Source: Branchiostoma lanceolatum
Taxonomy: Eukaryota; Chordata; Leptocardii; Amphioxiformes; Branchiostomatidae
Direction of reading: 5' to 3'
Length of the DNA stretch: 64,000 nucleotides
Assembly: GCF_035083965.1 (NCBI RefSeq)
Contig: NC_089724.1
Span: 18,122,974 to 18,186,973, forward strand
The first letter of the stretch is position 1; the number at the start of each line of letters is the position of its first letter. The translations under genes and the position numbers were made by a program. Below are positions 3,101-32,500 of this stretch, one piece after another. The notes under the pieces were generated by a model. It did no database searches, was not told the origin of the DNA, and was given only the letters and a program-made list of their open reading frames with translations.

Positions 3101-6100
3101 TCCTTTCAACAAAAAAAAACAACCGCCAAAGCTTTCAGTGACCCACTTAGCAAATATTAACTTGTGAAGCACTAGTGGATGCATAACAAACCACGCCCCT
3201 CTTTCTTTGCAGTTGGACTCTGACCTACCAAATTCAAGTGGAACAAAGTTCAGCTGTTACATGATTTCCAAAGGTAAACGTTGTCTACTGCAGCATGGGT
3301 GCTCTTACTAAAGCCTCTGTGGTGCTGGCTCTGCTGGCTGTGCTAGCTGCCTGGCGTTACTTCCCTCCAGTCCCTGAGGGCATTGTGGAACAAGGGAAAT
3401 TCAGAGTTCTAACTTTTAGCTTCAAATTGCAAGATGACCTGGCAACTGTCGCAGAATTCCTTGGTCTTACAACAAAGCTGGCCTTCATGAGGGCTGCGCA
3501 GAAACTCCTGGTGGTTAAGACAGAAGATCCATCTGTCCAAGTCACTGATACTACATTTGCAGGGGTCAAGGTTCGACTGTACGAGCCTACAGGTGGGAAG
3601 AAGACCAAGAAGGGTCCTGGACTGATCTATTATCATGGAGGGGGGTTCTGTGTGTTGGATGTGGACACACATCACCACATAACCCTTCACCTGGCCAAGA
3701 CCTTGGGAATTGTGGTTGTGTCAGTGGATTATCGGCTAGCTCCGGAGCACGTGTATCCTGCTGCGCTAGACGACTGTGTGGCTGCCACCAAACACTTCAT
3801 CCACAATGCAGGGAAGTACAACGTGGACCCTTCACACATAGCGGTGGCTGGTGACAGTGCAGGGGGACATCTTTCTACAACCGTATCACTGAAGCTAAGC
3901 CAAGAGAATTTCATGCCAATGCCACGACTTCAAGCTCTGATTTACCCTGGGACACAGTTTGTGAGCCTGGACACTCCTTCTTACAGACAAAGTGGACATG
4001 TGTATCCCTTAACCAACAAAAATGTAGCTTTCTTTATGTCAAACTATCTCGTGGGTGACCTGTCTCTTGTGCAGACATTTCTGAGTCATGAAAACCTCTC
4101 AGACAAGTTTAACTCCTCCCACTATGCAGACTATCTCGACCCACATCTCATCGACCCCAAAATTCCTCCCCGCCCGCCCTGTAAGAAGATGTCTGCAGCC
4201 GAAGTCGGAGTGAACCCCCAGGGTAAGAATCTCCTCCACCCGCACATATCCCCACTGATGGCTGAAGAGACCGACTTGAAGCGACTACCCAAGACATACA
4301 TAGCTGTCTGTGAACACGATTCCATCAGAGACAATGGTATATTGTACGGCAGAAGGTTGAAAAAGGCAGGCGTTCAGGTCCAGATGAAGCATTACATGTC
4401 AGGCTTTCACATGGTCTTTCAGTTATTTGGTTATGTACCAGCATTCAGTAGGTTTGAGGTAGGACAGGAAATGATGGATGATCTTGTGTCTTATCTTAGA
4501 GAACACCTGTAGGCAGGAAGATGCATAATACTAGTAGCGTACAACTAGCTGAGCTATAGATATGCCTGGACTCTGTGTTATGTGTCAATCAATGACTAAA
4601 ATGCCAAAAGCATTATTATAATCTTAGTGCTATCTTTGTTTGAAATACTAATTGTATGGTGTGTAATTGTCAAGTGTGTAATTGTAAGGTGCATCGTTCT
4701 ATGCATCTTCTAACATCTTACTCCCAACATTCCGTTGTAATTTTCGAACCACAAAGTACACACAGCCTACATAGGATGTACATATAGCTTAATAACAATG
4801 GTGTCAGTATACTAAAAATCATGCAAATTAGCTCTAGATTTGTATAACTGCATAGACCACTTCATTAAGAAAAAGAGGGACATACAGTAGGAGCCACCAA
4901 CAAGGGCTATCCACCTATTGGCTCCTGATTGCAGAGACTCTGTAATTCATAAATGTTGTTTACATGCATAAGATGTGTTTCAATTGTTACCCTTTAAGGG
5001 GTTCTTGAGCCTTATAAGTTGGTGACCATGAGTTTACACAAGAAAAGAAAGACTCACTGTAGAAGAAACTCATCACAAAGTTCATCTGCCGGCTCCTTGA
5101 GCTGCAGCAGGAGATCCACACACTCCGCTAGCTGGTGAGCATCAGACTGGACAGGTGGAAATAAAATTATAAACACACATACAGGAACAGTCAAATCATC
5201 CATACATGATGATGATGTACAATATCTTATATACACGTAGTATCATCAATAATATTTTGTCGTTCTAACCATGGGCTAGCTTAGCCTTGTAGTGTTGTTG
5301 TTTAATAGCTGTTGCCATACACTGACTAGCAATAATTATCAATTCATATGAAAAACAGTGTTTATATAACTGTTGTACCTCTTTGTTTTTAAACTGCTCT
5401 CTGAGCTTCACACAAAGTTCAGCAACAATGACAGAACAGTCCTCCCTGATGCCGTGGAAGGATGGCATGTGCTGGTACTGGTCCAGAACTGTACGGGCCT
5501 TGGTGTAGTACCTGGGTTTTGGAGAAAAAAACACTTTATAAAGACAAATAGATTTATCAACTCTACCTCCAAAGCAAAATGCTATCAGCACTTGTGTCAT
5601 TTCAACACAACACAACAAGCTTGCTACATGAAGTTCTTGATATGCGATATGTCTAGGATGGTACCTGTGCTATCTTCCTGCTGTGTCTGTGAAGCAAACT
5701 ACCTTACCTGACAGCCTGTCCATATGCCTGCATCTCGATACACTTCTTCAGTCGTGCTGGCAGCTCAAACAGAAACTGGAGCTGTACAAATGACATACAA
5801 TTACAAGATTTAGCACCGTTTCAAAGTTTGGGTAGGATAATTTGTTTTTAACTATGGGGAATATACATGTTGCCAAAATGTTACAGATTGTAGCTATGTA
5901 TGAATTCTGCAATTATAAGTTTGATGCAGTTGTTCATGATATGACACCATTGCTACCAGTACCTCACCTTTTTTAACAGCATGTGCACCCCTGACAGTTT
6001 GGTAATCTGCTGCCGTCGGTCCTGTAGAGTCCCGCTGATCCGGGCGCTGAACTCTGTGATGGACTCCATGTTGGTGGCCAGACGGTCCATTTCATCCTCC

Positions 6101-11518: not shown

Positions 11519-14500
11519 ATGGCGGACCGACCGATGAAGGTTGGGATGCGTGTGGAGGTGGCGGGGAAGGGCCTGGTGGGGACCGTGGCGTACATCGGGA
11601 CCACCATGTTTGCCAGTGGGAAGTGGGTAGGCGTGGTTCTGGACGAGAAGAAAGGAAAGAACAATGGAACTGTCCAGGGGAAGAAGTACTTTAACTGTGA
11701 TGATGGCTACGGCATCTTTGTCAGGCAGTCTCAGGTTTGTATTATTACTGTTAGTCATGTATGTTATATCATACTGAATACTGTTCCTTCATTTTTTGTA
11801 AAACTAGCGATATTATTCTACCCAAGGAAATTGTGGCATACTGTACATGTACAAAATATGTGTTCATTTCTCAATCTCTTTCTACATTTGTGTAGAAATG
11901 ATCAGTGATGACTTTGTATTACCTTGTGATGAAGTGTAATTGGGACCTGAAATAAGCATGAAGACCTTTACATCAGATCTAGCTCACACAGATGTAAGAT
12001 GTAGTATTGTTAGTTTAAAGTTGCTTCCTAATCATTTTGTCATGAATGGTGAGCTGTTATTTTGTATAACCCACCTGTGTAGTTGAACGTGTTAGAGGAC
12101 CAGTCAGGGGGATCCGCCAGCACTCCCAGCACGCCTTCACAGGAGGAAAAACCTGTCTCCAAACGAACTCCAGGGTCCAGAGGTACGCAAAATTAGCAAG
12201 TAGCAAATAAACACTAAATCAACAGTCTACATAAGTTTTAGCTTTACTTATCTTTTATTTGTAACATCATATCTTTTAAGATATCTGGATGTTAATTATC
12301 ACTTTTGGAAAAGGTTGTTGTCTTTTCTGTATACTACGTTGTACTAAGATGTTTGTGTTGTGAATTCTGTGTTCAAATGTTGACTTGCTGTCTTTCCACA
12401 AAGTTTAATAATAACCTTTGACACTTTCACATTTCATATTGGCATACATATATTGTCTTGAATCTTCTTATTGAGAAGCGTTTATCTTCAATTTCACAAA
12501 ACTTTCCCTGATGACACAATAGATTCGTAGTTAGTAAGTACTGTTAGTCATCTCACAAAATCTACCATGTAAGTTGTTTTCATGTTCCAATTCCAGCTTT
12601 GCTAATGCTCGTTCATGACTTACCCATAGATGCAGGTGTGTGTAGCAGTAGCATGAGTAGTTAACGTAGATGATAGATACCCCTTGCTGTGCATCGGCTC
12701 TGCCTGTTACCTCTATACATGAATAAACTGATCTGGACTGATCCACCTGCTCTCTCCCTCACTCCCTCCTTCCCTCCAGCACCAAGACCAAGATCCACAG
12801 GTTTGTTACCATGGCAATGGCTGTGTTGTGGCGTCGCTTGTATTTTGTGTGTGCTATGGTGGCGGCTATGGTTTCCCCTATACTGTTGCTGGGCATGTGC
12901 TTATGCTTATGTAACAGCTCTTTATGACACCAAAACTGTGTAAGAAGGAAGTACTACATGGATGGGCATGCTTGTATAATCTTCTTATTTGCAGAATGCA
13001 TTAAGTTTCATGTGGCTAGAAGGGATATGCCTTTTCACCTTGCAGAAAGAGATTATAGCGCAGTAATTTGTACATCAAAGCCACATCACATCTGCTTGCT
13101 CTGCACCCGCCATCACTTGTCTTGTAAAATCACTTGCACCTCTGTACCACTGCTATGTGTGATGTGACCTGCAATTATCATGCGTTCCATTTTTGATATT
13201 CTGCTGTCAGTGAATATTCATAATGCTTCTGCTTTACTACTCTCATCAGTAACCACTGAAGTAACAGTGAACATCATTCTGCAAAATCTCTAAGCTTTTC
13301 TCTAGAATATGAGGAGAAAAATTGTTGTCAAAAGTTAGTCATAGCAATAGCTGTTGCCTAGTAGCTATTTAAAAGATCTAAAGTTTCAGTAACGATTGAG
13401 AAAGTGTTGTTTTTTGATTGCCTGTAGTAACACAGAACTTCTGGTGTCCATTTCAGCCTTTGAAACTCCCAGAGCTTCTCGGGGAAGTCGGGAGAATCTC
13501 GAGGTAGGCTTCCCTTCGTTGACTCTATGTTGTGGTATAGTGTCTTGTCTTACGACGTCTTATTGAATATACGAGAGAAAATAACAAATTCTACAATAAT
13601 AATTATGGTGTTCATACAGACTTTAACATTCATTGTTCCAAAAATACTGAAGTGAAAGGTTCATATCAATGTACAACAGCAATGGCTGTCATAATTTTAT
13701 TGTACTAGAACCACAATGACAGCATTTCATTCTAAGGTCTGACTCTATCCTGCAGCTTGATTTTTTGGTTTTAGAAATTAGTTCTGATTATGATTTATTG
13801 TATGCAGTCTATATCATGTTATCTAAACTGTGTGTTTTGCAGACTAGTCTGATGCACACCTTTTGATGATGTTGATATAGTAAGGTTTTCAGTTACATAG
13901 ATATAAAAGAGAATACCTGCGTCTATGTTACTGTCATCTATTTTTGCATTTCTTTCTACTTTTCTACCAGAGGTGCCTAACTGACCTAATGAATGTGCTG
14001 TTTCTATTTCTGACAGACTGATTATAAGAAATGAGTATGATTCAAGAAATTCTGTTCAGTAGTATGTTATCCTTGAAACATGCTTCACAGAGTTGCTATA
14101 GAACATGAGAAACAGGTTCCGTTTACATTTCTAGGTTTCTCAAAGTGAAAAATTGTCAATACGGCTTTATGTCGCTTTACGGTATGGTGCTATTTCCTTG
14201 GGTCAGAGGTCATAAAGATTCACTCCCTGTGCATACACCATTTTTTAAAGTTAACCTTTTCTCAGTTATTCTTATGAGTTCATAACACATCTCACTTTCA
14301 ATCCAAATACCTAGTTTTGTTGCCAAGGGTTGTGATATTACACATTTGATAGCAATGGGTTGGCATCATATTACCGGTAGGCTGTAATCTATGCAACATG
14401 TAACTTGCACGGCATTGCCAAAAGGTCTAGGCTAGCATCATATACTCTACAGGATAAACAAATTGAACAAAATGTTATCTGTTCCAATGTATTTCATAGC

Positions 14501-17500
14501 AGCAGAGAAAACCCCCAAAAGTGTTTCATTCTTTGTCCATCTGTATCTATTCCAAATGATTATTAGATTCTTCAAAATTAAGATATTTCAGATGAGCCAA
14601 ACACCACTTTTTCATGTTTGTCATGAAGAGACTTTTGGCAATGAGCAGGCACACTCTATCATGTCTGCTCTGCTCTTTTTCTCTGCCTCCTTTCTTCTCA
14701 CCTTTCACCTGTAGAGACAACCCTTCCGATTCAAGGTTAGATCATGCAAAATCATGGTATTGCTTAGTATACATACTTCTAGAATGTCTTCAGTGTTGAA
14801 CCTAAATTGGTGCGGGTACACAGAAACGTCACAGAGAAGTGTTTAATGGGGCTGATAATAAAAGTGATGATGTATAAGGACACTGAAGTCACTCAGAATT
14901 TTAGATAAGGACAATATTCTATTTCCCTTTTCCCGAAATGCTAAGATTTCTCAAAACATATTTGCCTGCATTAGGGTAGGTAATTTCTTTATTGATTTTA
15001 CACCGTGTTACATGGGGCAATTTCTAAAACCAAAATTCTTTTTGCACTGACACACAAAACAAACAAAATGAGAAGTTCCACTCTTTTTTTTCTTTCTGTA
15101 GTATCTATACCCTGTAGTCCAAGTAAGAGTAAGACATTGGTGCAAAATATTGGAAGTGTCAGTCTGTTGAACAGGTCAAATGTCAAGGGGAAATGCAGTA
15201 GATGCCGCTTGATTGCATTACTCTTTTAAGTGTATAACTTAATTATTTGCATAAAATAGCTCAACCCTAAACAGGAAGACAGTTTTACATTTACAATTTT
15301 AAATGTGGGTACTGCATGCAAATGTTGGCACTATATTAGGATGTGTCTACATTTCTTGCCATCAAAAGTAGCATTTGTGTCTGTGTGTAATTTACAATGT
15401 GTGTATATTTAATGCAGACAATTTTGTCCAGTATTTCTCAGACAACCTGCATGTACAGTGCCCAATAAAAATGGGTTTCTCTCTGTCTACTGTCTCATTA
15501 TTTCATAGTTCACACATGACTGCGTCACCAAACCAACAACCACATCAGAGAAGAGAAGAAACGACTTGACCTTAGCTGACAAAGTCAAGGTCATTCAGAT
15601 CCTTGACAGCGGATCAAAGACGTCCCAGACTGAGGTAGCAAAGAAGTTCGGCTGTTCCCCATCGCAAGTCAGCAGAACCTACAAGAAGAAGGCGGCCATC
15701 ATGCAGCAGTGGAAGGCAAATAAGAACCCCAACTGCAAGAGGAAGCGAGCAGGGAAGAATGAAAGAGTTGAGGAAGCTCTTTATCAGTGGTTTCAGAGTG
15801 AACAAGCAAAATCAACACATTTGTCTGGCCCCATTTTGATGGAAAAGGCCTTAGAATTGGCAGAGAGCATCGGTGAGCCAAACTTCAAACCTAGCGAAGG
15901 CTGGCTGGGCAGGTGGAAGGACAGACATAACATTGCATTCAAAAGGGCACGTTTGGAGAGGAAAGATAGAGATGAAAACGACACAGATGACAGAGATGTA
16001 TTCATGGAAGATGCAAATGACAAAAATGTAGTCATGGAAGATGCAGATGAGGAAGATGCATGGGAGAAAAATGCAGATGTGGAAGATGCAGTTGAGGAAG
16101 ATGTAGATATGAAAGATGGAGACAACAAGGATGCAGATGACAAAGATGCAGATGACAAAGATGGAGACAAGAAAGATGCAGACACTGAGTCTGCTGGTGA
16201 CGGGAAGGGAGACATGCTAACTGTTCAGCAGAGTCATGAGCCTGACTGCACCATGCCAACTGCTACACAAGAGAAGAAAAGGAACGACTTGACCTTAGCT
16301 GACAAAGTCAAGGTCATTCAGATCCTTGACAGGGGACCAAAGACATCCCAGGCTGAGTTAGCAAAGAAGTTTGGCTGCTCCCCATCGCAGGTCAGCAGAA
16401 CCTACAAGAAGAAGGCGGCCATCATGCAGCAGTGGAAGGCAAATAAGAACCCCTACTGCAAGAGGAAGCGAGTAGGGAAGAATGAAAGAGTTGAGGACGC
16501 TCTTTATCAGTGGTTCCAGACTGCCCAAGAAAAGTCAGAGCCTTTATCTCGTCCTTCCCTGATGGAAAAGGCTATTGAATTGGCTGAGAGCATTGGAGAG
16601 CCCGACTTTAAACCTACTGTACGCTGGCTGGGCAGGTGGAAAGACAGACATAACATTGTAATCAAGGGAGCACATGTGGAGGGGAGAGATGGAGACAAGA
16701 AAGATATAGTGGAGGAAGATGCAGATGAGCAACTTGCAGACAAGATAGATGCAGATGAGGATGATGTACTCGAGGAAGATACAGATAAGGAAGATGTAGT
16801 CAAGAATGATGCAGATGACAAAGATAGAGACAAGAAAGATGCAGACACTGAGTCTGCTGCTGACGTGGAGGGAGGTATGCTGCCAACCATCCAGCAGAGC
16901 CATGAGCCTGACTGCACCATGCCAACTGCTACACAAGAGAAGAAAAGGAATGACTTGACCTTAGCTGACAAAGTCAAGGTCATTCAGATCCTTGACAGCG
17001 GACCAAAGACGACCCAGACTGTGGTAGCAAAGAAGTTCGGCTGCTCCCCATCGCAGGTCAGCAGAACCTACAAGAAGAAGGCGGCCATCATGCAGCGGTG
17101 GAAGGCAAATAAGAACCCCTACTGCAAGAGGAAGCGAGTAGGGAAGAATGAAAGAGTTGAGGAAGCTCTTTTCCAGTGGTTCCAGACTGCCCAAGAAAAG
17201 TCAGAGCCTTTATCTGGTCCCATTTTGATGGAAAAGGCTATTGAATTGGCTGAGAGCATTGGAGAGCCAGACTTTAAACCTACTGACGGCTGGCTGAATA
17301 GGTGGAAGGACAGACATAACATTGCATTCAGGAGAGCACGTGTGGAGGGGAAAGACCCTTCCACTCAGTCAGCTGAGGATGATGTGAGAGCCATGCTATC
17401 ATCCATCCTACAAACGTATGAGCCTGACTGCATCTACAGCTGTGTGGAGACAGGCCTCCTGTACCGAGCATGGCCATTTACGATTGCTGGCAGTGTAGAG

Positions 17501-20500
17501 GACAGCATTAGTGTGTTGTTTGCTTGCAACATGTCAGGGACTGACAAATTAACCCCAATTGTTGTAGGACGCAGTGAGAACCCAAAGTGTTTCCGTGGCT
17601 ACAGAATTCCTCTGCCATGGTACGCCAACGAAAAGGGTTGGATAACTAGGAACATCTTCACAGAGTGGATTAGGAAAATCGACTGTGAGATGAGGCAGAA
17701 AAACAAGAGGATTGTTCTGATCTTGGAGACCAACACAGCCCATCCTAGTGACATTCACCTAGACAATATTCAGCTCCTCTTTCTGCCAGCTAACGCATCT
17801 GCCATTATTCAACCACTTGTCCGTAACTTGAAGGGCTTGTACCGTACTCAGCTGTTGAAACAAATTCTACTTACAGTGGACAATGATGACGTTGAGTCAG
17901 TAGCTAACCTTGGAACAAAGATAAACGTCCTGGATGCGCTATACATGGTAAGGGAGGCCTGGAGGAAAGTTTTGCCAGCAACCATCCAGTACTGTTTCAG
18001 GAAGAGCGGTTTAATTGTTTCAACCAGCCAAGACAATGCAACAGAAGTGGATGCTGTTGTTGCACCACCAGAGGCGTTTTGGACAGAAGAATTTGAACAG
18101 TTTGTGGATGTTGATTCAGAGCTACAGTGCACCGGGGAGCTGCCCACAGCTGAGGAGATTCCCCAGGATATGACAGGGGTTGGGAGCACGTCAAGTACGG
18201 AGACTGACACCTGTGATGATGACACAGATCCACCCTGCCCTGCTCCGAGTCCAGCACTGCTACAGGCAGCCTTCAATGTCATCCGCCAATGGATGCAAAT
18301 CCATGATTTCGAGGAATACAGCAATTTTATTGACATTGAGGGAAAAGCACAGGACTTTTGCATGGATGCCTAGAAACAAAAACATGTGATGACTGTCTAA
18401 TAGTTCTTTCAACTGCCCTCTGACTGAGTTAGTTTATTAACATGGTAACCTGGACTAGAGTCTTACATTCTTGTCCTTGTATGTATATGTATACTGGTAT
18501 GTAGCTGTGCTGGAATTGATGAACGTAAAAGTATGCTTGTTCCTTGAATAGATCACTTAGTTTAGTTATTCAAAGTTGAAATAAGCAGACTTATCGTTTA
18601 ACAGACTTAATGAAGTAAACAATGATATATGGAATTTGAATCTCTGACAGCTCATGGATGACCTTCCATTCCCTGTCTTCCTTGCAATAATTGTTTACTA
18701 TGAATTTGGGTGATTCATTGATTAGGCAATTTTGGAAATCACATGTAACGTAGACATGTAACATATCATTTTTCAATAATATTACAAGTTGTTATCTACT
18801 GTTTTTCACACTTGAAGTTGTTGGCTGTTTGCTAATAATGTTATTGAGATACAAAACTGCATTTAGATGAAACGTTAACGTTTTATATTCACTTCTTAAA
18901 TCAATCTTTCCTCCTAACGTTTGGTGATTGGTGATAAGTTATTGATTTTTATAATGCTGATGTCTAACAAAATGTTAATCATGAATAAAGCATACTAATT
19001 TTAGTGGGAATTCTGATGACATGATTGTTTTTTTTTGTGTTATTGTTTCTTACCACCCAGTCTCCATCCCCTTGCATCATCAGGTGATGCCGCTCATCTC
19101 GGCTGAGTATTAAAATCAAAGAAGCCAGAAAATTACAGAAAACGGGAAATGCAATCAAGCAGAGTCTGCTGTATCATCACTAACTTAAAAAGACATTTTG
19201 CAAACATATTTTAAACCACACAGTATTGGTATTAACGTGTGGGTAACACAAAGCCCTGTATTGACTCAAAATGGAAGGATGATCTTTTATTGAATTGTTG
19301 AAAAAATCTATGGAAAAAAGTTAGTCCATTGTGGTAAACTGTGCCATACACGTACATGTTAGTTTGATAATTTTTTCTAGGTTTATGCTATACCTAATAT
19401 TATTATAATCACAAAAGCACATCTTTCAAAAGCATGCATCAAGCATAGTTTTATGATACAATGTAATTTTTGCACATTTGAATATTAGGAATTTGCATGC
19501 ACAAGGAGAATTTTTTATGTTTTCTTACCAGAAGGTAATTGTTTTGGAGGGGGGATGTTTTTGGTTTGTTTTTTCTCTGTAGGAACAAGTCTCATTTATA
19601 CCAACAGTTGTTAGAATGGGGGATAATGCTACAGAGAATTACATGAAGAAAGGCACAACAGTGCTTGATACAGAAATGTTGACATGACCACCTTAACACC
19701 TACACTTAGAAAAATATTTTGTTGTGAGTGATATGCATTAAGATTAGTCACTGACACCCCTGGTTTGATGATAACCATTCAATATATTTTCATTTCAATC
19801 CTTAGCTTAGATTCCCCCAAGTTTTATTTGTTTAGTACCAGGCTAACATTAGCATAGCTGAAAATATATATTTTTAATAAACAGTTTGTTTTGTAATAGA
19901 CCTCCCATTTATTCTTCCCTTACCCTATAGTCCATACCCCAAAGGAAAACACCATCATCAAGCTCCAAGGTACAACCATACCATGTTATCTACTACTAAC
20001 CTATTAACCACAGTAGGGGATGATTGCTTTGCCTGTTTTTATCCAACTAACCCTTTGGTGGAAAGGTATTTGTTTCAACAAATGGAGGATGAAAGGTCTC
20101 TAACCACTATCCAAGGAGGTTATTTAACCTCCTTGCACTATCTAAGATTTACCAAAATTTACCTTTCTCTTGCATATGAATAGGAAAGTGGTGGAATGGT
20201 GGTTATTTGTGAAAATATTAAGCTACCAGGGAAAATAAGCTGGATCTTTATTTGTTGCTTTTTCATAGAAATAACTTTTTAGGAGTAAATCCTAGCCTAA
20301 AGAAAAAGTATTTATAAACTTTGGAATGTGTCTCGATTTAGACTTGCTCTTTCAAACATCCAAGCTCTCTGTGATTCTTCTTAGTTCTTTTCCAATCTTA
20401 CCTGGAAGCCAGTACGCATTTAGCCCACTTTTTTGAAGTCCAAACTTCACAATACCTCAACTGTCACTATTATTAGTGACTATCGAATCTGGTACAAGTT

Positions 20501-23500
20501 TTCAAATTTCCTTTTTTTGTGTGCTTATATTCACAGACACTGAAGATTATTACAGTGTTTGAATAAATGATATTGACCTCTGCACTCCAGTTCTAATTGT
20601 CAAATCATTCCATTGGCTTTGCTAATACATTTCCCCTGCCCACAGCCAACTAGGAGTGCATCGTCCTCTGAACTTAAGGTAGATAGCATCAATATTAATG
20701 ATAGTCATTCTGCGCAAAACAATGACATCTGAACAGTTTTTTTCTTTACAACTAGTTGCAAGGCTGTCGCTAGGTCATAAACATTAGAATCACTTTGTAT
20801 ATACTAGGATATTTTAAAATCTGCATCCAATGTATATTTTGAAACTTTTATACATGTCATGTAGGCTTTATTTTTCTCTCGACATATACACACGGATATT
20901 GATACATACATGTACATGTGTACTATGTTGTCTGTCACTGACATCCTGTTCAGCTTGACAGAATGTCCTCTCCTAACTGTGACTTGGATGCCCCTTGTCT
21001 CGCATACACAAAGATGTGATCCGTAGCCTGTGTAATAATCATATAGAGGTTCATGAAGATCTTGTTTAAAAAGCTTGTTTGTACCAAAAAAATGACAATG
21101 TTTGTAAGTGAGACATAACTTTCATGTACATTACGTACATGTACATTATGGTTCGGCCGTTCCACTCCACCTCACTACAGATGTGGAAGGACTCAACCAA
21201 CCCAGGAACAAGTAGAGCTACATGAGCTGAAAAATGATGATACATGTGTATTATGTTTGAGTTAGGGCTTCTTGTTCATCTAAAAAAATGTTACTTTGAC
21301 CCATAAAATTGATTGCTAGCTTAGAAAATGCATGTAAATAAATGCATTATGTATCTGAATGATGACGTCCCTGGATTTCTGGAGCTGTGTTGATGTGTGC
21401 TTGTATGGTTGATATGTGGATTATCTTGTGGAAGAACTAGACTAAGTATAGTGGGTGTGTTACATTTGAGCTGACAAAGCATCAGCTGGTGATGATGATT
21501 ACAAATTACCAGTAATGCTAACAACTGTGCCTGACTTGCATGATGTTCCAGACTTCAAAGACTGCAAACTCCGACCAGCAGACTAAAAAGTCCAAAAAAT
21601 CCCCAACGTCTAGTAACTTGGAAGAAACCATCAAGGAAATGAAGGTATTGCCTCTGTTGGGGACTTTGCAAAGCACAAATTTTGTTGTCACACGCAGCAG
21701 TGAGTTTGGCATGTCTGTATTATTGTGCACTTAAATACACTGCTGAACGTTTTAGAGGCACCTGACATTGCTTATTCATTCAAGTTTGAAAGCATTAACT
21801 GCAGTCTTTAACAAATGAAAGTGCTTTTATCAGAATTAGAGCCATGTGTTGCAAAGATCTGTGTGTGAATGAAATGAGGAATGTTTGATTTTTGATCTTC
21901 TACCAATGAGAGCAAATAATTCCACAGTTACAGGCCTAGACTGCCTGTACCTGTAAGCGAAGTTGCTTGTGCTTGCAAGTGCTTTATGTCGTCAGTGTTG
22001 ATATAGTAGAAAAGCAAAGACATGCTAATAGTACAGATTTTGTTGCTTAGAATATTTTTGCTCACATTATGTAATCATTAAAGAGAAGTCTACAAGTAAC
22101 TTAACAAACTACTACCGTATGTACTATAACATGTTAGTCCATTCCACTCAGACAACACTTTGTCTTTTTTTCCAAGACGCCATTAATGATGGTTTACCAA
22201 AGACGAAAGTTTCCCATTTGGGCGATCACCCAAAGACCCAGCTATTATGACATGATCATATCCGTTTAGCTGGGTCCACAAAGTGCTGACATAGATGGGA
22301 GACTTTCGTCCCTGGAAAACGTCTTTCAGTGTCTCACAAATGATACACTTTCAAGTAAAACAGGTGATAGTCTGAAATTGTGATTGTACATAATGATTGT
22401 ATATCCAGCGAGAATTGAAATTATATACAATAGCAGAAACCTCTCCAAACCTTCCTCTTGTTTAATATCTAGCTCTTTCTCTATTAGATGTGCCTGTCAA
22501 GTTTACAGACAATAATGCTTTTCTTCCTGTTAATCATCTTGGAATTCTCTTCCTCCTCTACACTATAGTCTCCCACCCAACCTTCAAAGGACTCTTCCAA
22601 ATCCAAAGTAGGTGCCTTCTTCCCTCCTGACTCCTTTCAAACTTGCTGTACTTCGCCTTATTCTTTTTGGTTACACCCCAAGGGTGGAGGTATTTTAAAA
22701 CTTCTACAGTGGAAAAGTAGCCTGCTGTCTTGGAGCAAGTTGCAGATTTATTGAAGCAAACATGCTGATTTTATATATCATTGTACTAGATATATGTAGC
22801 TCTGGAGACACCATGAAATTAAACAACTTTGCTACAAATCATTGTAGCAGAGCGGTTCTGTCAATTACTCAAAAAGTGGTATCATTTCGTAGTTACTGTG
22901 TTAACCCTTGAACCATTGAAAATCTGTGGCCAAAATATGACCTCAGCAGAGAGAAAGACAAACCTGCCTTATTTCACAATGTTGCACAGAATACTTCTAA
23001 AAATTCTAATTTCCTCACGATGACATATTTCAGCAACTTTTGCAATGAATACAAATTGTGGCTACTTTTCCATTGTGTAAACTTACTGTATCCTTCTTAC
23101 TTTAACCAGAGCATGGATGTGTAGACTCTGCTTTTTGTTAAGTCATGTGTAAATAGGAGAAAAACAGAGGTTTCAGAACAGTATTCTTCATATTGTTCAT
23201 CTATGCCTTGGGCCAAAACAAGGTATACATGTCATGTCATTCAACAGACTGATTATGCTGAATCAGCTCACTGCAAGAAGGTCTTGGTGTTGTGAATTCT
23301 GAGGCACCTCGCAGCTTAAATCGAATCCAACTGATGGTTGCAATCATATAGTGCCAACAGGAGAAGACATGATTCCAATTTTTATTCCTGTATTGCATAT
23401 GAGTAGCAGTGTTGCTTCTGCATTGCTCAAATGATCATAACTTTTGAAATTCAGTCTTCACCCCACAGAAGGTGAAAATGGCAGAAAAAGCAAAGTCTGT

Positions 23501-26500
23501 CCCACAACTTGCTAGATGTACCTGTTAACTGTATGGCTGACCCTCCTGTCCCTAGGAATCCACACCTTTATCTACCCCTGCGTCCACGCCTGTGGGCCCT
23601 ACTCCAGCAGAAATGGAGAGTGCGAACAGGGAGATCGGGGAGCTCAATGCCAAGGTGAAGGACCTGGAGGAGAAGCTGGACACCATCAAGGTCAAACGTC
23701 TGGAGGACAAAGGCAAACTCAAGGAGTTCGAGAAAAGCAAGATCGAAATTCAGAAGGTGAGATGTAGTTCTTGCAAACTATTTGTGCAGAGAGTAATTAC
23801 ATGTATATTGATTCTACTATACTTAACAGTACATTGCAGTACCTAACAAAAAACCATGTGAGGAAAGTAAGTTGGTAGTTTTAATGTATGGTGTTTCTTG
23901 CATCCTGACACTATCATATGAAACCTTGTGGGTCAATTATAGATTTTCTACCAGTCCTTTAAGAATCATTTCAGATTTAATGAGTGTATGATGTTGATGT
24001 TAATGAATTTCATGTTGGACTGTTTCTTTGTTACCTGGTAACATTCTTAACGACTGCAATTTTTGCAGCTTCAAGAGTTTAAGAGCAAGATGCAAGAGGC
24101 CAAGAATGATCTCGAGAAACAGCTGAAAGAGGCAAAGAAGGTAAGGATGGATTTAAAACAATCATGAAAACATTGCCTTTTTCTAAATCATTCACTCCAT
24201 ATAAAGCCTTATTTTTTAACTGTTTCATAAATGTTACCAGTGAGTGTAATGTCCACCAGCTATCAATCCACCATTTTACTAAGATTAAACCAAAAGTCTT
24301 TATAACAGTGTTCACTCCAGTGTTCAGTAATTGATAAAGGGTCTTGGTCTCTTCCATCCTCATGTCGTTTATAGGAAGCCAAAGAGGCTCTTGATGAAAA
24401 GGAGCAGTTTGAGGAGGAGATGAAGGATGTGACAGAGACCATCGAGATTGCCACCCTGGATAAGGAGATGGCTGAGGAGAAGTGTGAAGCCCAGCAGCTA
24501 GAGATCGACCAGCTCAGGGAGAAGCTGGAAGAGGCACAGACGGATCTTGAGCTTCTTAAGAATGAAATTGCCACTTCAGGTATTAAGAATTTATAGACTG
24601 TATCACCCAACAGTGTCTTATTGAATGTACATGTATATTATCCTTTTCTGTTCCTTTTCTATTTAAAGTTATAATGAAACCTTTGAGTCATAGAAAGGAG
24701 ATGTATCCTTCATTCAGTATTTAGTAAGAAAGAGATGTTGTCACTTATCCTATCCAACATTTGTTACGGTTTATTAACATAGCATACACTCTGTATCACA
24801 TCTGAAAATCATGAATGATGCTGTTTCACTAGTTATACAGCAGCACTTGAAGTTTCAGTTATAATGATCAACAATGTTAAACCATGTTAATTCATGTGTC
24901 ATTTGTAGTTCTTGGGAAAATGACAGCTAGGAGACTGGTATTCGACCGGTTTTGACTTTATTGTCTTTTTCATGTTAATTCATGTAGTTCAGTAAATTCT
25001 TGTACTTCCAACACCAACACCTAGATGGCTCTTCTGAGAAATTCTCACCATGACCTCATTGTAACAATTATCTAGTATTGGCAAAATAGATATTTCTATG
25101 TCAAGCTGGTATCACAAACTGTGTTGTATAACCCACCAGGCACAGAGGGTGCTGCTACCAGCTTCCAGGTCAAACAGATGGAGGAACAGAACAACCGACT
25201 CCGCGATGCTCTGGTCAAGTAAGTGTTCCATCGTGGATGGTCAATCCAGTAGTCCTATAATTCACTGACAATAACAGTTACTGCCGCTTGGAACTCCTGT
25301 GACCAAAAAGACAGGTACACTTACCCTTGCCAGTTGCCATGCACTGACTTACATGTATGCCCCTGTGCTGTACTGTGCAGGATGCGCGACCTGTCCCAGT
25401 CTGAGAAACAGGAGAACCAGAAGCTTCAGAAGGAGATTGACAAGACCAACTCCCAGCTGAAGACCCTGACTCAGCAGAAAGAGAAGCTGTCCAAAGAGGT
25501 GGAGGAGACAGAGGCAACTGTGGACGAACTAAAGGAACAGGTAGGTTCTGCTGGTATTCTTCAAATACAATGCAATATAATCCTAATCTAAGCTTAAATT
25601 TTTACTTTTTATTTTATACTCATGCTAAGTCCACTAACCTTATTTTCAGTCGAGTCATGTGCCATCATCAGGATAGTAACTCAGTGACAGGGTCAAACTT
25701 GTCTAGAGGTCTTAATCCCCCCCCTCCTCCGACCCTTTTGGAAAGAAAGCTTAAAGTAACGTTGATCGTGCATCGGACCTACTCAGATGAAATTGAAGTA
25801 TGCTAATTTACTGTATACCTTGATGATACATGTACATAAAAAAGGCTTGTCTTTATGAAGACATGATGTTTTAAATTCTAGCTTTAATGAAATGTCAATT
25901 TGCCCCCCCTCCCTTCAGGTTGATGCTGCCCTTGGTGCTGAAGAGATGGTGGAACACCTCACAGAGAGGAACCTGCAGCAGGAGGAGCGCATCCAGGAGC
26001 TGGAGGAGCAGGTCGGCGACCTGGAGGCCATGCACGAGATGGACGAAGAGATGCAGGAGAGCGCCCGCGACAACGAGATCGAGATGCGGGAAGAAATCGA
26101 CATGGCCAACTCCAAAGTTCGGGAGGTAGGAATTAGCTGTTTTGTAGGATGTATTGTTTACAATAGGATGTCAAGTATTATCCACATGTGATCTTATGAG
26201 AAAGCCACCTCACATGTGTAAAAGACTATGAGTATCTAAAGGGACAGATCTAATTCTGTCATAAGGCAGTCTTGAGCAGGCAACCAGACTGTGTGCATCT
26301 ATTCATTCTGCAGTCGTACACAAGTTATTGTTGTGATTCGTTGATGATATTCTTGCCATGTGAAAGAATCTTTACATACCATGCATGAATACGTTACCTG
26401 ACCTTCCCTCCCCCCTGTCTGTCCCCTCAGTTCCAGCGGAAACTGGAGGCGTCTCAGGAGATGATCGCAGACCTGCAGCAAACCATCAACAAGTATAGAG

Positions 26501-29500
26501 ACCTTACCACTCAGCTCAGGGTTAGTACATTATATGTGTTGTTTAACCCCCTGTCAAAGCAGGAAAATCAATCTGCCGACAAGTGGCAAGCTCTAAATGT
26601 GACTTTTGCTAGTAATGCGTCCTGGTATTCTCTCAATCATCTTACAGTTTTTAGAAATACAGACAAATTTGATCCATTTATACCTTTGTGTTGGAAGAAA
26701 GTTTAGCATACTATGATAATGACCAACACAGATGAGCTTCCATGACTGTATGACAGGGCATAAGACTAGTAAAATATCTTTGGGGAGAGTGTAACTTGTT
26801 CTGTTGAAGGCTTTTGTATCAGAAATAGTTTTAAACATTTCTGTGTGTCATGTGCTTTATTGATATTTTGTCCTCAGGAGAAGAATGAAGACCTTGCAGA
26901 GCAAACAGCAGAATTGGGGAAACAGGAGCCTACCACTCCAGTGGAAACTTTCGACTTCAAGACCAAGTTTGCAGAAGTCAAGGCACATGCCAAGGTTAGT
27001 GCTCACTCAGTAGCATTTTAAGCTTCTGTAGGACGATAGAGGAAGTTATCTGTTACAGTTTTTCAAGAGTTTTGATTTACTAGTAGTCAGGAATCTGCTA
27101 GAAATATAAAGCGTCTTGTGTCTTGTAGTAAACATGTCATATTTGTTTATTCTGTGCATCCCTTCAGCAAATAGACATGGAGCTGCGTAAACTGGAGGTA
27201 CAGCAGGCCAACCAGCATGTCAATCTGCTGTGTGCCTTCATGCCGGACAACTTCCACCGCAGAGGAGGTTAGTTTGTCATCAGACTCTTACACAGTCTGA
27301 CGTGTGTGTCTGCATGTTTCTGAAATTCAGTAAGCAAGAACAAGCCTGAAATATGGTAGATTTATGACAGTTAAGATAAAGTGATGTTTTAAAGCTACAA
27401 AGTTTTTTTAACGGTATCATTGATATCTAATGTTTAGTCCGGAAAATGTTAATTGTTCTTGCCACTAAGATTTTATTCCTACCCCCTCCCCCAGGTGACC
27501 ATGACTGTATCCAGGTGCTGCTGCTCATCCCCAGGATGGTGTGTAAGGCTCAACTGCTGGCAGACCAAGTCAGGGATAAGGTAAGTCACTGTCTTGTACC
27601 CAATAGAAGTCTACATGTAGTACCCCTGTATTATCATATCTTGATAGACAACCATGATTAGATTTCGTAAATTTGACGTAGTAGCTAATGCTATGTCTTG
27701 CATTTTTATGTGTAAAGTTCTGTCAAAGATGGTTTATCAGCACACAGGTGAAGCAACAGAAGTGTTTGTCTTGCAGCATGAGTCAATACAAGAACAGTTG
27801 TACGGGCCTGAGGAGGGGGAAGAGGGAGAGAGCCAGGTTGTCTGTTATGGTTTGGGAAATTCAATGTAGAAGGGAGGTGATAACATGGTGAACAAACCGT
27901 AAGGGTGCAGTAGTGTAAGCAATAGAAAAGAGGGTTTCGGTTGCTTTTAGTGTTGGTTGCCATAAGTATGGCAAAAGGTGAAGGTTTTTTGCTTGTTCCA
28001 TAGAGCAAATGGTGGTCTGATTTCTTTATATTTTCCTGAGGCTTGTGGTTTTGTGGGCAAAAATACAGATGTGTGTTTTGTGGTGCCATGTCCATGTATT
28101 TCCCTGTTTTTCTCTGACTGCTTGTAGAAGGAAGATATGACACTTAAGTAGCATTGGTGGTAGATGTTGGGTGGACAAATGCTTTAAATGCTGTGCGTGT
28201 TTAACCAGTTTCCAGGTGGTCATGCCCATAAAACCTCAATGTGATCTGCTTAGCTCATCTGAGCAAGAATGTCCAGCTTGTTTCTTTGAATCCCGAGACC
28301 TTGCTAACTTCAGTGTCTATTTTTCTTGTGTGCGTGTCTGTGGCCAGCAGTTTGAGCTCCCGCAAGGCGGTTTAGACCGGACGCAGGTGGTGCGCAGCCA
28401 TGTCGGAGAACAGCTGGGTTTTGCCAACCATCTCATCTACTCACTGGCCATCTTCCAGTCCATCCTGCACAAATATGACAAGTAAGACCAACACAGATTC
28501 TCTGTTTTATAGTTAAGTTTCAATGATGTTGCCTTGCAAATAGCAAATGATTCCAGACCGCATTTAATGTAAAGAAAGCTTCACCCAGTATCATGAAACC
28601 AGGCTGGATTTTGGCACAACCAAGCTACCGGGTACAAAATACCTTCTCTCTGCTGCCTAAGCTTATCTTGAATATAGAGTTGGTGCAGGGAGAATGCAGT
28701 ATCTATTCTATATGCATCTAAAAATCTGTAGCACTGAAAATATTACAGTTGGTTTTGTTCATGTTGTTGTTGTCATTCCTCACCGTTGTTGTTGTTGTTG
28801 TTGTGTTCTAGAGCCCTGAACTCCTGCTCTATGGAGCTGTACATGAAGGTGGGGACGCTGTACCCAGAGATGGCCCTGCATGAGAGGGCCCTGGATCACC
28901 TCATCGACCTCCTGAAGAAAGATCAGGTATGGTGGGCACACTTCCTCAGCTCAGGGTCTCCAGTAGAGCTGTGAAACTAAAAAATTTTAGGTACAGGTAA
29001 AGGTACAGGTACACAGGTTTAGGTGCAGGTCCGGACCTGTACCTTAACTACTTGTTCAGAAAATGGTACATTTTCAATAAGGACAAAAGCATGTTTGAAC
29101 TGGTAACAACATAATATTTAATTGTGCTATGTATTATTTTGATGAAAACACAGATGAAAATTTGACTCCAGCCTTAAAAATGTGTTTTATGTGGCTTTAG
29201 AGTAGTTTTATCTGTCAAAGTGGCCATCCCCTGAGTCAGGCTTGACCTGATTAGTACCGGTCCAGCACCAGTCCAGCAGGGGTCAGGTATTTTGGACCTG
29301 TACCTAATTGAGGTGCAGGTAAACATGTCGCACATAAGCACGTCGACCTACCTAATTGATTGTACCTGATTGTACCGGTACTGTAGCCGAACGGTGTACC
29401 GGTACACAGCTCTAGTCACCAGATGAATGCTTTCCTGCAGTGTCCCAAAGAGGACCATACTTTAACTTTTGTTTCATTTTACCATATTGAATATACAAAT

Positions 29501-32500
29501 ACTTGACAAGTGATTAAGCAGTAGGCAAATGAAAGTGCTGCTGTGTTATTTGTTAATATTAGATACAGCATCTGAACCAGATGTTTTTCATTGTAACAAG
29601 ACTTGAGAATTAACAATAAATCATGTTATTGCAGCTGGATGAAACAGTGTCCATGGAGGCATTGAACAAGGCTATCGCTTTCTACCAGGTATGTATTGAC
29701 ACATTTAAGGAAGACATTTAGTTAATAGTTGTTGATCTGTGTACTTGTGTGGTCTTTCCTGTGTTCATCTATCTTTCACCAGATATAGTCATTTGTTCCT
29801 GTCTCATTCTTTCTACAGTGCTTTATGTTTTAATAAGTGTTCTGTCTTTTTTGCTTTTCACCATCATGTCTTTGTTGCATTCTTCTTATAAACTATTATA
29901 CATTGACCAGATGGCAAGGCACCTTTCCTCTTTCAAAATTGTTTGCATAAGGAAGATGTTTCAGTGCTGCTTTTTTCACCTGGCTGCATTGTATATTTTG
30001 CTGCCAACACCGATGGTTCTCTGCCCCCTCTAAATAGAAAGCAAGAGCACATACTATTATAGTTATCAAATTTTGAAATCAGTTAGCCACATCATAGTAC
30101 TATAGCTGAAACTTAGAGATAGCCTAGACATACATGGATATCTTGATATTGTACAAACCTAAGTTCAAACTAACACTTTTTGCCATTCTTTGTTACTGGA
30201 CTGCAGCAATTGTTAACGATATATGTAAGTAAGTTACCAAGAAGCCCAGGCTTTTAGTTGGGGATTTTGGTCTTATTTCTGGCAAAACACAACACTGCAT
30301 TCTTCAGCTAGAAAGAGGAGAGGCACAGTCACCTAGTTGTTTCTTGTGCAAGTAGTAATTTTTTCTTGGTGAAGTGGAGGGTTTTACATCTTACCACGTT
30401 CTCTACAGGCTGCCAGAGACTATTTGGAAGCTCAGAAAAGGCCCAAGGTATCATCTCTTGCAACAACACCTCATAAGCTAACTATTTTTCACGCCCCCCC
30501 CCCTCCCCCCATGGAAAGTTTGTACCATTGTGCACCTTGGTATGCCTGTGACAGCATGAAGACGGATTCCCCATTCATTTTTTTTCCTGCAATATTCTAG
30601 TATCCAGCATTTTTGAGGCTAGTCAAAATGTCCATGACATACAGATACTGTATGTCTTAACACAGTTAGAAACTGGAAGGAAATACCAGTGAATTCTACG
30701 AAACTTGAACTTGCCATTCCAAGATTGTCTAATATGTTGTACTTTAGATTTTATTTCATTAACTACTAATTCATCACAAATACATGAAGCATTGTGCAGT
30801 TAGTGGGAAGATTGGCTGCTTAATTTTAAATGTTCCAAGCAAAAGAAATGACTAAAGATAGTGTGATATTGTAACATTGGCACCTGGCATGGTGATCAAT
30901 TTATCATAAAATCATGGCTGCAGTTAATGACGGTCAGATGTGAAGCTACCCATTATTACTGTTTCTTAAGAAATTATAAAAGCTACATTGCTGTCATCCT
31001 ATTACTGTTCTCATCTCTCTCTCTTCACCATGCACCAGATTTGCCATACTGTTGTATCTCCTGGCCATTGCTCAGAGCATGGGCCTTATAATTCACATTG
31101 CCTTGAGTTTAACCGCCAGTCTTCTGTTGGAATGCACTGATTTGTAAGACATAGGAATGTTGTTGTCTTATTTTGGAAGTACATGTTCAGTATAGGTATG
31201 ATTATGTACTTCCTGCCATACATTGTAATTAAGACAATGATATTGATTACCAGGTTTGTAGCCAATTGTTTCGTACTTATAAGGTATTTTCCAATCAAAA
31301 GAAAAAAAGGGACACTAGTTGAAATGTAATTAGAGCAGGAACCTATTGGTTGGACAGCAGAGCCAATGCAAAGTTTTTCTTTTCAAAATTCTGTGAACAT
31401 GTTGAAAAAGAGCATGAATATCACTCTTTTACGTCAGAAGCTCATGTCTTGTGAAACCAAAACTTTTGTCTTTTCCTGAGTCTTGTCAGTTACTGTAACA
31501 GTCTGTGTAAACAGTAACTGTTGTACATTGTTGTGCAGAGGCCAAAAACATTTTAAAGCTGTAGATACTGTAGATGTTACCCCCAAACTCAGCTGGTTAA
31601 CTTGGCCCACCCCTTTCCCTCCCTGTAGCACCTGTACAGTGTGCACCTGATGAACGAAGTGGTGGACTGTACCACTCTGCTCGGGGACCACCTGCGCATC
31701 ACGTCCGCGGCGCAGGACAGCGTCCAGACCGACCTGAACCGCCTGAAGGTGCTGCTGCACCCCGGACAGGAGACCAGCGACTTCGCCATCCTACTGAAGG
31801 ACCTGGAGACCTCTAATGGGGACTGTAGACAGTTCGCCAAGAAGGTGAGAGTGCTATTTTACTACTTCATGACATGAGGTTTGCAACTAAGGTAAAGAGA
31901 AATGCTTTCAGAACAAATCATGCAAATTAGATCTTCATTTTATAATTATAGATACTAGTTACATTCAATTTGTATCTGGCTCTTATATTTCATGTTTGTA
32001 CGGTTTTAAAAGAATGATCATATTATATGTATAGCTATGGCTGTTACATATGTATGTAATGCAAAATTAAAGACTCTCTGAAGCATGTTCAATATACGAT
32101 ATAACCTTGGTGTGTACAATTACATGGGCTACCGGTATTACACAGAACTTGTTGCCCGTCTATTTGATGAGCTGTACTTTTGGGTGTAAGAGCTAGAGGG
32201 CCGTACAGTAACTGATTTTGTGTTGTGCTGTTTTCCAGATTAAGAGACACATGCCTGGTGAGGAGAGCTCCAGGACCCTGTCCTTTGGACAAGAGGTACA
32301 TGTAAGCTCTGTCCCTGATTCTTCTGGTGTCGTGTCACATTCATGACATCACCTTCATCTTCTCTGCCTTCTTCTCTCATGCCTTCATTTGACTCCACTT
32401 GTACCTTACAAGTTGTTCTGATTGAATAGTATCTAGTATCACTTAATCTTTAACCTTCTTGCTGTGGAATATTTAATTCACCAAATTTGAATGTTGTGGT

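Follow-up and report, generated by a model that had tools for sequence, protein, structure and literature searches.

Three CENP-B-type modules and a lost catalytic triad in an open frame of an old, probably immobile pogo/Tigger-type element within the dynactin-1 gene of Branchiostoma lanceolatum

The window analyzed here is a stretch of 64,000 nucleotides of the lancelet Branchiostoma lanceolatum (contig NC_089724.1, positions 18,122,974 to 18,186,973 of the forward strand), and its main subject is a long open frame inside an element flanked by inverted repeats. Dynactin-1 coiled-coil exons were found on the same strand as the frame from ~23.5 kb (the mapping covered 18501-33002), and an exon that ends at 11734, which we take to encode a CAP-Gly domain, lies upstream. 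This confirms the placement in an intron of DCTN1 given in a preliminary description of this DNA. The frame opens directly 3′ of an in-frame TAG (15506-15508), and its 954 codons agree with the earlier statement that more than 930 codons are intact; when counted from the TTG at 15566 the product (P0001) would have 935 amino acids (aa). In the whole protein Pfam detected CENP-B_N and HTH_Tnp_Tc5 three times each and DDE_1 once, every family over its curated cut-off, and the architecture described before, three DNA-binding modules and a DDE domain of the Tigger/pogo kind, was thereby recovered. The features of the locus are given below.

11519-11734, + strand: dynactin-1 exon, 72 codons, ending in phase 0 (gene confirmed from the downstream exons; CAP-Gly label presumed)
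15196-15223, + strand: left terminal inverted repeat, CAGTAGATGCCGCTTGATTGCATTACTC (alignment of the ends), preceded by TG at 15194-15195, one base from TA
15509-18373, + strand: open frame P0001, 954 codons plus TAG (open-frame listing and translation); the AG at 15507-15508 could act as a 3′ splice site
15517-15523, again at 16243, 16909 and 17425, + strand: TGACTGC 7-mer, which borders every copy of the repeated unit
15557-15934, + strand: DNA-binding module 1 (CENP-B_N and HTH_Tnp_Tc5), 126 codons (Pfam, module alignment)
15701-15703, + strand: first ATG of the open frame, within module 1 (sequence)
15935-16249, + strand: acidic linker 1, 42 of 105 residues D or E, partly a 15-bp tandem repeat (composition, repeat search)
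16280-16657, + strand: DNA-binding module 2, 126 codons, with Arg at module codons 91 and 115 (Pfam, alignments)
16658-16915, + strand: acidic linker 2, 33 of 86 residues D or E, partly a 15-bp tandem repeat (composition, repeat search)
16946-17323, + strand: DNA-binding module 3, 126 codons; its junction with the DDE domain is that of single-module relatives (Pfam, alignment)
17444-17446, + strand: catalytic position 1, Val (GTG) (alignment to relatives)
17501-17998, + strand: DDE_1 domain, P0001 residues 665-830 (Pfam)
17726-17728, + strand: catalytic position 2, Glu (GAG) (alignment to relatives)
17816-17821, + strand: Leu-Val codons, between which four residues, including the third catalytic Asp of relatives, are gone (alignment)
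18371-18397, + strand: stop codon and relic tail KQKHVMTV, then TAA (translation compared with relatives)
18984-18989, + strand: AATAAA, a possible polyadenylation signal, inside the element (sequence)
19144-19171, - strand: right terminal inverted repeat, CAGCAGACTCTGCTTGATTGCATTTCCC when read on the - strand (alignment of the ends), followed by TA at 19172-19173

Direct repeats of 300 nt start at 15526, 16249 and 16915, the second and the third each being 90% identical to the first. At the protein level the 126-residue modules differ pairwise by 19, 17 and 13 residues (hand count), and this 85-90% identity falls short of the near-identity claimed before. Module 3 matched the DNA-binding domain of CENP-B (PDB 1hlv) by sequence with an E value of 1.1e-16. 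The TGACTGC 7-mer marks every border of the repeated unit, and the DNA-binding segment may have been tripled in frame through recombination between these 7-bp repeats. Modules 1 and 2 differ unevenly at synonymous sites: the first half has 5 differences at ~37 sites, the second 17 at ~39 (Fisher p 0.005; p 0.0002 when all differences were taken), a pattern that suggests gene conversion with partial homogenization of the first half. The region of low synonymous difference (15557-15742 vs. 16280-16465) covers the first helix-turn-helix half.

Two protein searches yielded 21 and 13 proteins, 32 of them different; the 7997 candidates that shared most words were scored, and candidate length was limited (to about 525-1670 aa in the second search). 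The nearest full-length relative was P0002, from the eel Anguilla rostrata, 55% identical to the module-3-plus-DDE query along the full length of the query, and lancelet relatives came from B. belcheri (P0003, P0015 and P0030) and B. lanceolatum (P0004 and P0019). Many matches are named TIGD3-, TIGD4- or TIGD6-like. In the pogo survey PMC7386202 these three are placed in pogoR, and the spacing ranges of the pogoR and Tigger families overlap. A tree of the DNA-binding modules had a support of 23-60% at most nodes and was left unused for family placement; its stem to the three modules measured 0.23 vs. 0.02 to 0.30 for the tips in lancelet and eel sequences. CENPB-type factors have been reported in B. 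belcheri and B. floridae (PMC10027918).

Exactly one counterpart of module 3 was present in 31 of the 32 fetched relatives and none was detected in P0022, more than one being found in the window protein only. The statement that known relatives carry a single module therefore holds for these 31, and also for Table 1 of PMC7386202. No publication on tripled CENP-B modules was found among the titles and abstract openings listed, a search in which subscription journals were thinly covered.

Two of the amphioxus relatives, P0019 (B. lanceolatum, 310 aa, named 'TIGD3') and P0030 (B. belcheri, 706 aa), combine the same module subfamily with a C-terminal helix and a PIP-box-like tail and have no DDE domain; from their sequences they possibly form a separate domesticated line. 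They are like the window protein in module subfamily and C-terminal helix, and unlike it in having a single module and no DDE domain. The P0019 tail, KKQKNITTFF, fits the PIP box, a motif reported for pogo transposase in PMC5371812.

The catalytic triad was read from an alignment with 25 relatives, among which 12 keep all three acids (of the 32, P0021, P0022, P0023, P0029, P0030, P0032 and P0033 were left out). Position 1 is Val at P0001 residue 646 (627 from the TTG) and position 2 is Glu at residue 740 (721 from the TTG). At position 3 the catalytic Asp is deleted, and QPL----VRNL stands in place of the QPLDQGIIRN of relatives, an in-frame gap of four residues. Of the Val, Glu and Val named in the preliminary description the first two were upheld; the third, residue 771 (752 from the TTG), aligns with the Ile next after the missing Asp stretch. 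The broader claim, loss of all three acids, was correct. Asp to GTG at position 1 requires two substitutions. A closer alignment with 10 relatives revealed more gaps downstream of the first acid, which remove ~10 residues, and the gaps in this domain preserve the reading frame. When the columns without variation among the 12 intact relatives were compared, 23 of 33 were kept outside the triad and 0 of 3 within it (Fisher p 0.04); with looser invariance cut-offs the non-triad columns kept were 31/44 (p 0.035) and 40/60 (p 0.045). Judged from this anatomy, the transposase is catalytically dead.

All three catalytic positions are also changed in P0014 (Haliotis cracherodii), P0016 (Synaphobranchus kaupii) and P0011 (Gavia stellata), which have long open frames and are candidates for independent catalytic loss.

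An AlphaFold2 model of module 3 plus the DDE domain (488 residues, 26 sequences) had a mean predicted local distance difference test (pLDDT) score of 81 and a predicted template modeling (pTM) score of 0.56. Nine PDB matches were obtained at E ≤0.001, all of them CENP-B, Mos1 or Metnase, and the target TM-score with CENP-B was 0.73. For the DDE part, which the preliminary description proposed to examine by structure and profile, Pfam returned DDE_1 and the model resembles Mos1 and Metnase weakly to moderately. An RNase-H-like fold is likely retained in the predicted structure.

The terminal inverted repeats, which the preliminary description had not noticed, begin with CAG, and 22 of their 28 bases agree, with 6 mismatches (hand count). 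Their local alignment score was 21, when compared with at most 18 across 343 control placements in the window. TA stands to the right of the element and TG to the left, the target-site duplication being imperfect. Because degenerate pogo-like terminal inverted repeats flank it, the frame is, on the evidence of these ends, part of a transposon copy. PMC7386202 gives the pogo superfamily elements of 1.2-5.2 kb, transposases of 300-977 aa and, in most families, inverted repeats of at most 40 bp, and the element (15196-19171, 3976 bp), the frame (954 codons) and the inverted repeats (28 nt) all fall within these ranges. The same survey reports the superfamily as absent from Cephalochordata, a report contradicted by the pogo-type sequences in lancelets, namely this element and P0003 and P0004 with intact triads. 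Within the 64-kb window no further copy was found, with no DNA match and with best tblastn E values at chance level (0.37 with the window protein and 0.07 with the other fetched proteins).

These data suggest that an old and probably immobile pogo/Tigger-type element lies in an intron of dynactin-1 of B. lanceolatum. As to its frame, we tentatively favor a temporary retention for DNA binding that followed the loss of catalysis; close behind stands a decayed relic, a serious if somewhat less probable explanation. According to the former, the catalytic acids would have been lost after the tripling with the reading frame still maintained, most likely for its usefulness as a DNA-binding protein. 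Judging by the anatomy, three modules of the CENP-B type, tethered by flexible acidic linkers, could attach with high avidity to several sites that lie in a cluster. Candidate targets would be the element's own inverted repeats or repeats elsewhere, which the protein might repress or organize, and the folded DDE domain might serve as a scaffold. According to the latter, the modules would have been multiplied and selected in an active transposon lineage, and the copy in dynactin-1 would then have lost its start, its tail and its triad, its frame being open by luck or through recent death.

Retention for DNA binding is preferred to a relic because of the open-frame statistics. These come from a simple neutral model of our own, which counts the third acid as a substitution though it is deleted, and whose probabilities ignore that the frame was chosen for its openness among many, two properties that weaken the case for retention. 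In this model 4.3% of substitutions create a stop; a neutral relic should have 4.9 stops at 4% divergence and 9.9 at 8%, and 0 were observed. The 954 open codons permit at most 2.4% neutral divergence (95%), and less when insertions and deletions (indels) are counted; the inverted-repeat mismatch of 6/28 exceeds this limit, assuming that the repeats were once identical. The probability that the three triad codons are hit with the frame open was at most 7.5e-6 when indels were ignored and fell to as little as 1.7e-7 when they were included. Triad loss with all 954 codons open is thus improbable under this model. Since reported lancelet heterozygosity is 3.2-4.2% (PMC12862219), a frame whose neutral period goes back further than ordinary polymorphism should, we infer, be broken. 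Two further points speak against a relic: three acids have all been lost, and multi-module relatives number 0 of 32, with no sign among them of an active triple-module lineage. The confident model of module 3 plus the DDE domain, the in-frame gaps of that domain and the columns kept outside the triad also count for retention.

The modules carry a record of selection. By counting, the ratio of nonsynonymous to synonymous substitution rates (dN/dS) over 126 codons was 0.21 for modules 1-2, 0.24 for modules 1-3 and 0.36 for modules 2-3, and over 136 codons it was 0.26, 0.25 and 0.51, respectively. With codon-based maximum likelihood on 145 codons per module, a single omega of 0.42 was obtained (p 0.0014 vs. 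1). Module 1 gave an omega of 0.35 against module 2 (p 0.0007) and of 0.34 against module 3 (p 0.001), and the module 1 branch had an omega of 0.28. The fraction of stop-free mutation simulations with as few amino-acid changes as observed was 0 (module 1 vs. 2), 0.003 (1 vs. 3) and 0.036 (2 vs. 3). Since the split of modules 2 and 3, omega was 0.67 on the branches (p 0.32) and 0.65 for the pair alone (p 0.29), values that neutrality fits and that a relic would predict. These codon estimates show clear purifying constraint for the earlier divergence, that of module 1 from modules 2/3, and no significant sign of it since the later one.

The synonymous distances between modules (dS 0.15-0.365) correspond to roughly 16-39 million years, given the rate of 4.65e-9 per site reported in PMC12862219 and a one-year generation; the suspected gene conversion makes ages from dS unreliable. 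The split from B. floridae is put at ~72 million years ago in PMC6305399. With modules younger than this split, absence of the element from other species would not refute its retention.

Apart from the neutral fit of modules 2/3 and the properties of the neutral model, the following findings weigh against retention, and several of them point to a relic. (i) The start appears to be lost. TTG, from which the preliminary description counted at 15566, is no usual eukaryotic start codon; the first ATG in frame, at 15701, lies within module 1. Modules 2 and 3 retain ACCATGCC at the site where P0004 and P0019 start and P0003 and P0015 carry Met, and module 1 reads ACCAAACC there, with AAA in place of a probable ancestral ATG. 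(ii) The tail is cut by the TAG at 18371, 3′ of which the DNA reads KQKHVMTV and a stop, a worn version of the P0019 tail. (iii) The DDE branch of this copy is long (0.49 vs. 0.27 in P0002, 0.21 in P0003 and 0.24 in P0004), which fits relaxed constraint. (iv) Linker 1 vs. linker 2 had an omega of 2.6 (p 0.06). (v) In module 2, Arg replaces two Gly that are at least 90% conserved in the family (module codons 91 and 115). (vi) With the catalytic domains of Mos1 and Metnase the model reached target TM-scores of 0.31-0.44, with a root-mean-square deviation of at least 10. (vii) The two protein searches, covering 7997 scored candidates of limited length, gave no close match to the frame, though the database includes B. 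lanceolatum proteins. (viii) The selection recorded in the modules may stem from a period of active transposition.

Broken triads are, moreover, frequent among open-frame proteins, with 10 of the 22 relatives that have all three positions aligned (of the 25) affected, though some of these may be domesticated. Finally, in PMC7386202 inverted repeats together with target duplications on one or both sides mark a transposon, and a sequence without them counts as putatively domesticated; here repeats are present on both sides and TA on one, which also weighs against retention. By this published yardstick and the sequence at hand, the frame can be filed neither as a domesticated gene nor, its triad being lost, as a functional transposase. 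A relic thus draws its support from the lost start and tail, the weak recent constraint, the kept inverted repeats and the missing protein record. The preliminary description had seen here a domesticated, multivalent DNA-binding protein: the dead triad, the three modules, the long frame and the omega of 0.34-0.35 between module 1 and modules 2/3 fit it, and the kept inverted repeats, the lost start and the p of 0.29 for modules 2/3 do not.

With no ATG upstream of 15701 in frame, a full-length product requires an upstream exon. If the presumed CAP-Gly exon were alternatively spliced to the acceptor at 15508, a host-transposase fusion of CAP-Gly and three CENP-B-type modules would result, and the element's own start would be unneeded. 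The element lies on the same strand as this exon and downstream of it, the 72-codon phase-0 exon (11519-11734) would join 15509 in frame, the frame opens exactly 3′ of the AG, and an AATAAA follows at 18984; the phase match, however, has a 1 in 3 chance. The AG at 15508 scored 2.08 bits with an acceptor matrix. At ten dynactin-1 exon starts checked in the same way, the best AG scored 0.99-9.2 in seven and -0.91 (doubtful) in one, and no AG was in range for two. Against this, the score at 15508 is unremarkable, being at the 94th percentile of 4090 AGs and at rank 38 of 637 in 11735-20500, and no fusion protein was among the matches of the search over proteins of about 525-1670 aa. We consider a fusion unlikely. 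Intronic transposases are known to be captured through splicing (Cosby et al., 2021, cited in PMC8290160). A single protein that joins the dynactin-1 CAP-Gly domain to the three modules, and that could thereby link DNA sites in a cluster with the ends of microtubules, is the least probable of the proposals made here. The acceptor at 15508 was rejected as strong evidence of splicing, its score being average.

A repressor at the level of the transposon, in which the dead multivalent protein would be kept, through benefit to element or host, for binding the inverted repeats of related elements and damping their movement, is consistent with the loss of catalysis, the retained DNA-binding modules of the family and the existence of related amphioxus proteins with intact triads (P0003 and P0004), and we rate it as slightly less probable even than the fusion.

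Retention for DNA binding, our tentative preference, sets the frame beside several known systems. Like transposases of the pogoR/Tigger kind, of which P0002, P0003 and P0004 are the nearest, it combines CENP-B_N, HTH_Tnp_Tc5 and DDE_1 with short inverted repeats, here in a 3976-bp element; unlike them, it has three modules in place of one, a lost triad and a damaged start and tail. Domesticated pogo-derived genes (CENPB, JRK, TIGD2-7, POGK and POGZ) likewise keep the DNA-binding domain, with the catalytic site degraded in several, whereas each has one DNA-binding set (Table 1) and orthologs with a nonsynonymous to synonymous ratio (Ka/Ks) below 1, all according to PMC7386202; the window frame has three modules, and its inverted repeats are present. 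The CENP-B DNA-binding domain (1hlv) is matched in both sequence and fold, but CENP-B has a single module, and the match does not imply that the window protein binds the CENP-B box. In fusion genes of host and transposase (the same Cosby et al. study), too, a transposase frame lies within an intron of the host and keeps the phase of a host exon upstream; in contrast, the host domain would here be CAP-Gly.

Should the frame serve as a gene, its product would be related to CENP-B but multivalent, built through in-frame multiplication of a transposase DNA-binding domain, an architecture absent from the 32 relatives fetched and from Table 1 of PMC7386202. It would then show a step between catalytic loss and gain of avidity that is no longer visible in older domesticated transposases. 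If it is a relic, the copy is ordinary, yet it still documents an element of the pogo type in a lancelet, a group from which PMC7386202 reported none.

Two other frames were observed in the window. An AADAC-like esterase is encoded at 3295-4512 in one uninterrupted frame of 405 aa, with 99% identity to B. lanceolatum AADAC, which identifies the genome as B. lanceolatum; identity was 86% with the B. floridae protein and 79% with an entry labeled B. floridae x B. belcheri. An open frame of 301 aa lies at 45520-46425 on the - strand, and its product presumably resembles a PC-esterase/FAM113-type protein.

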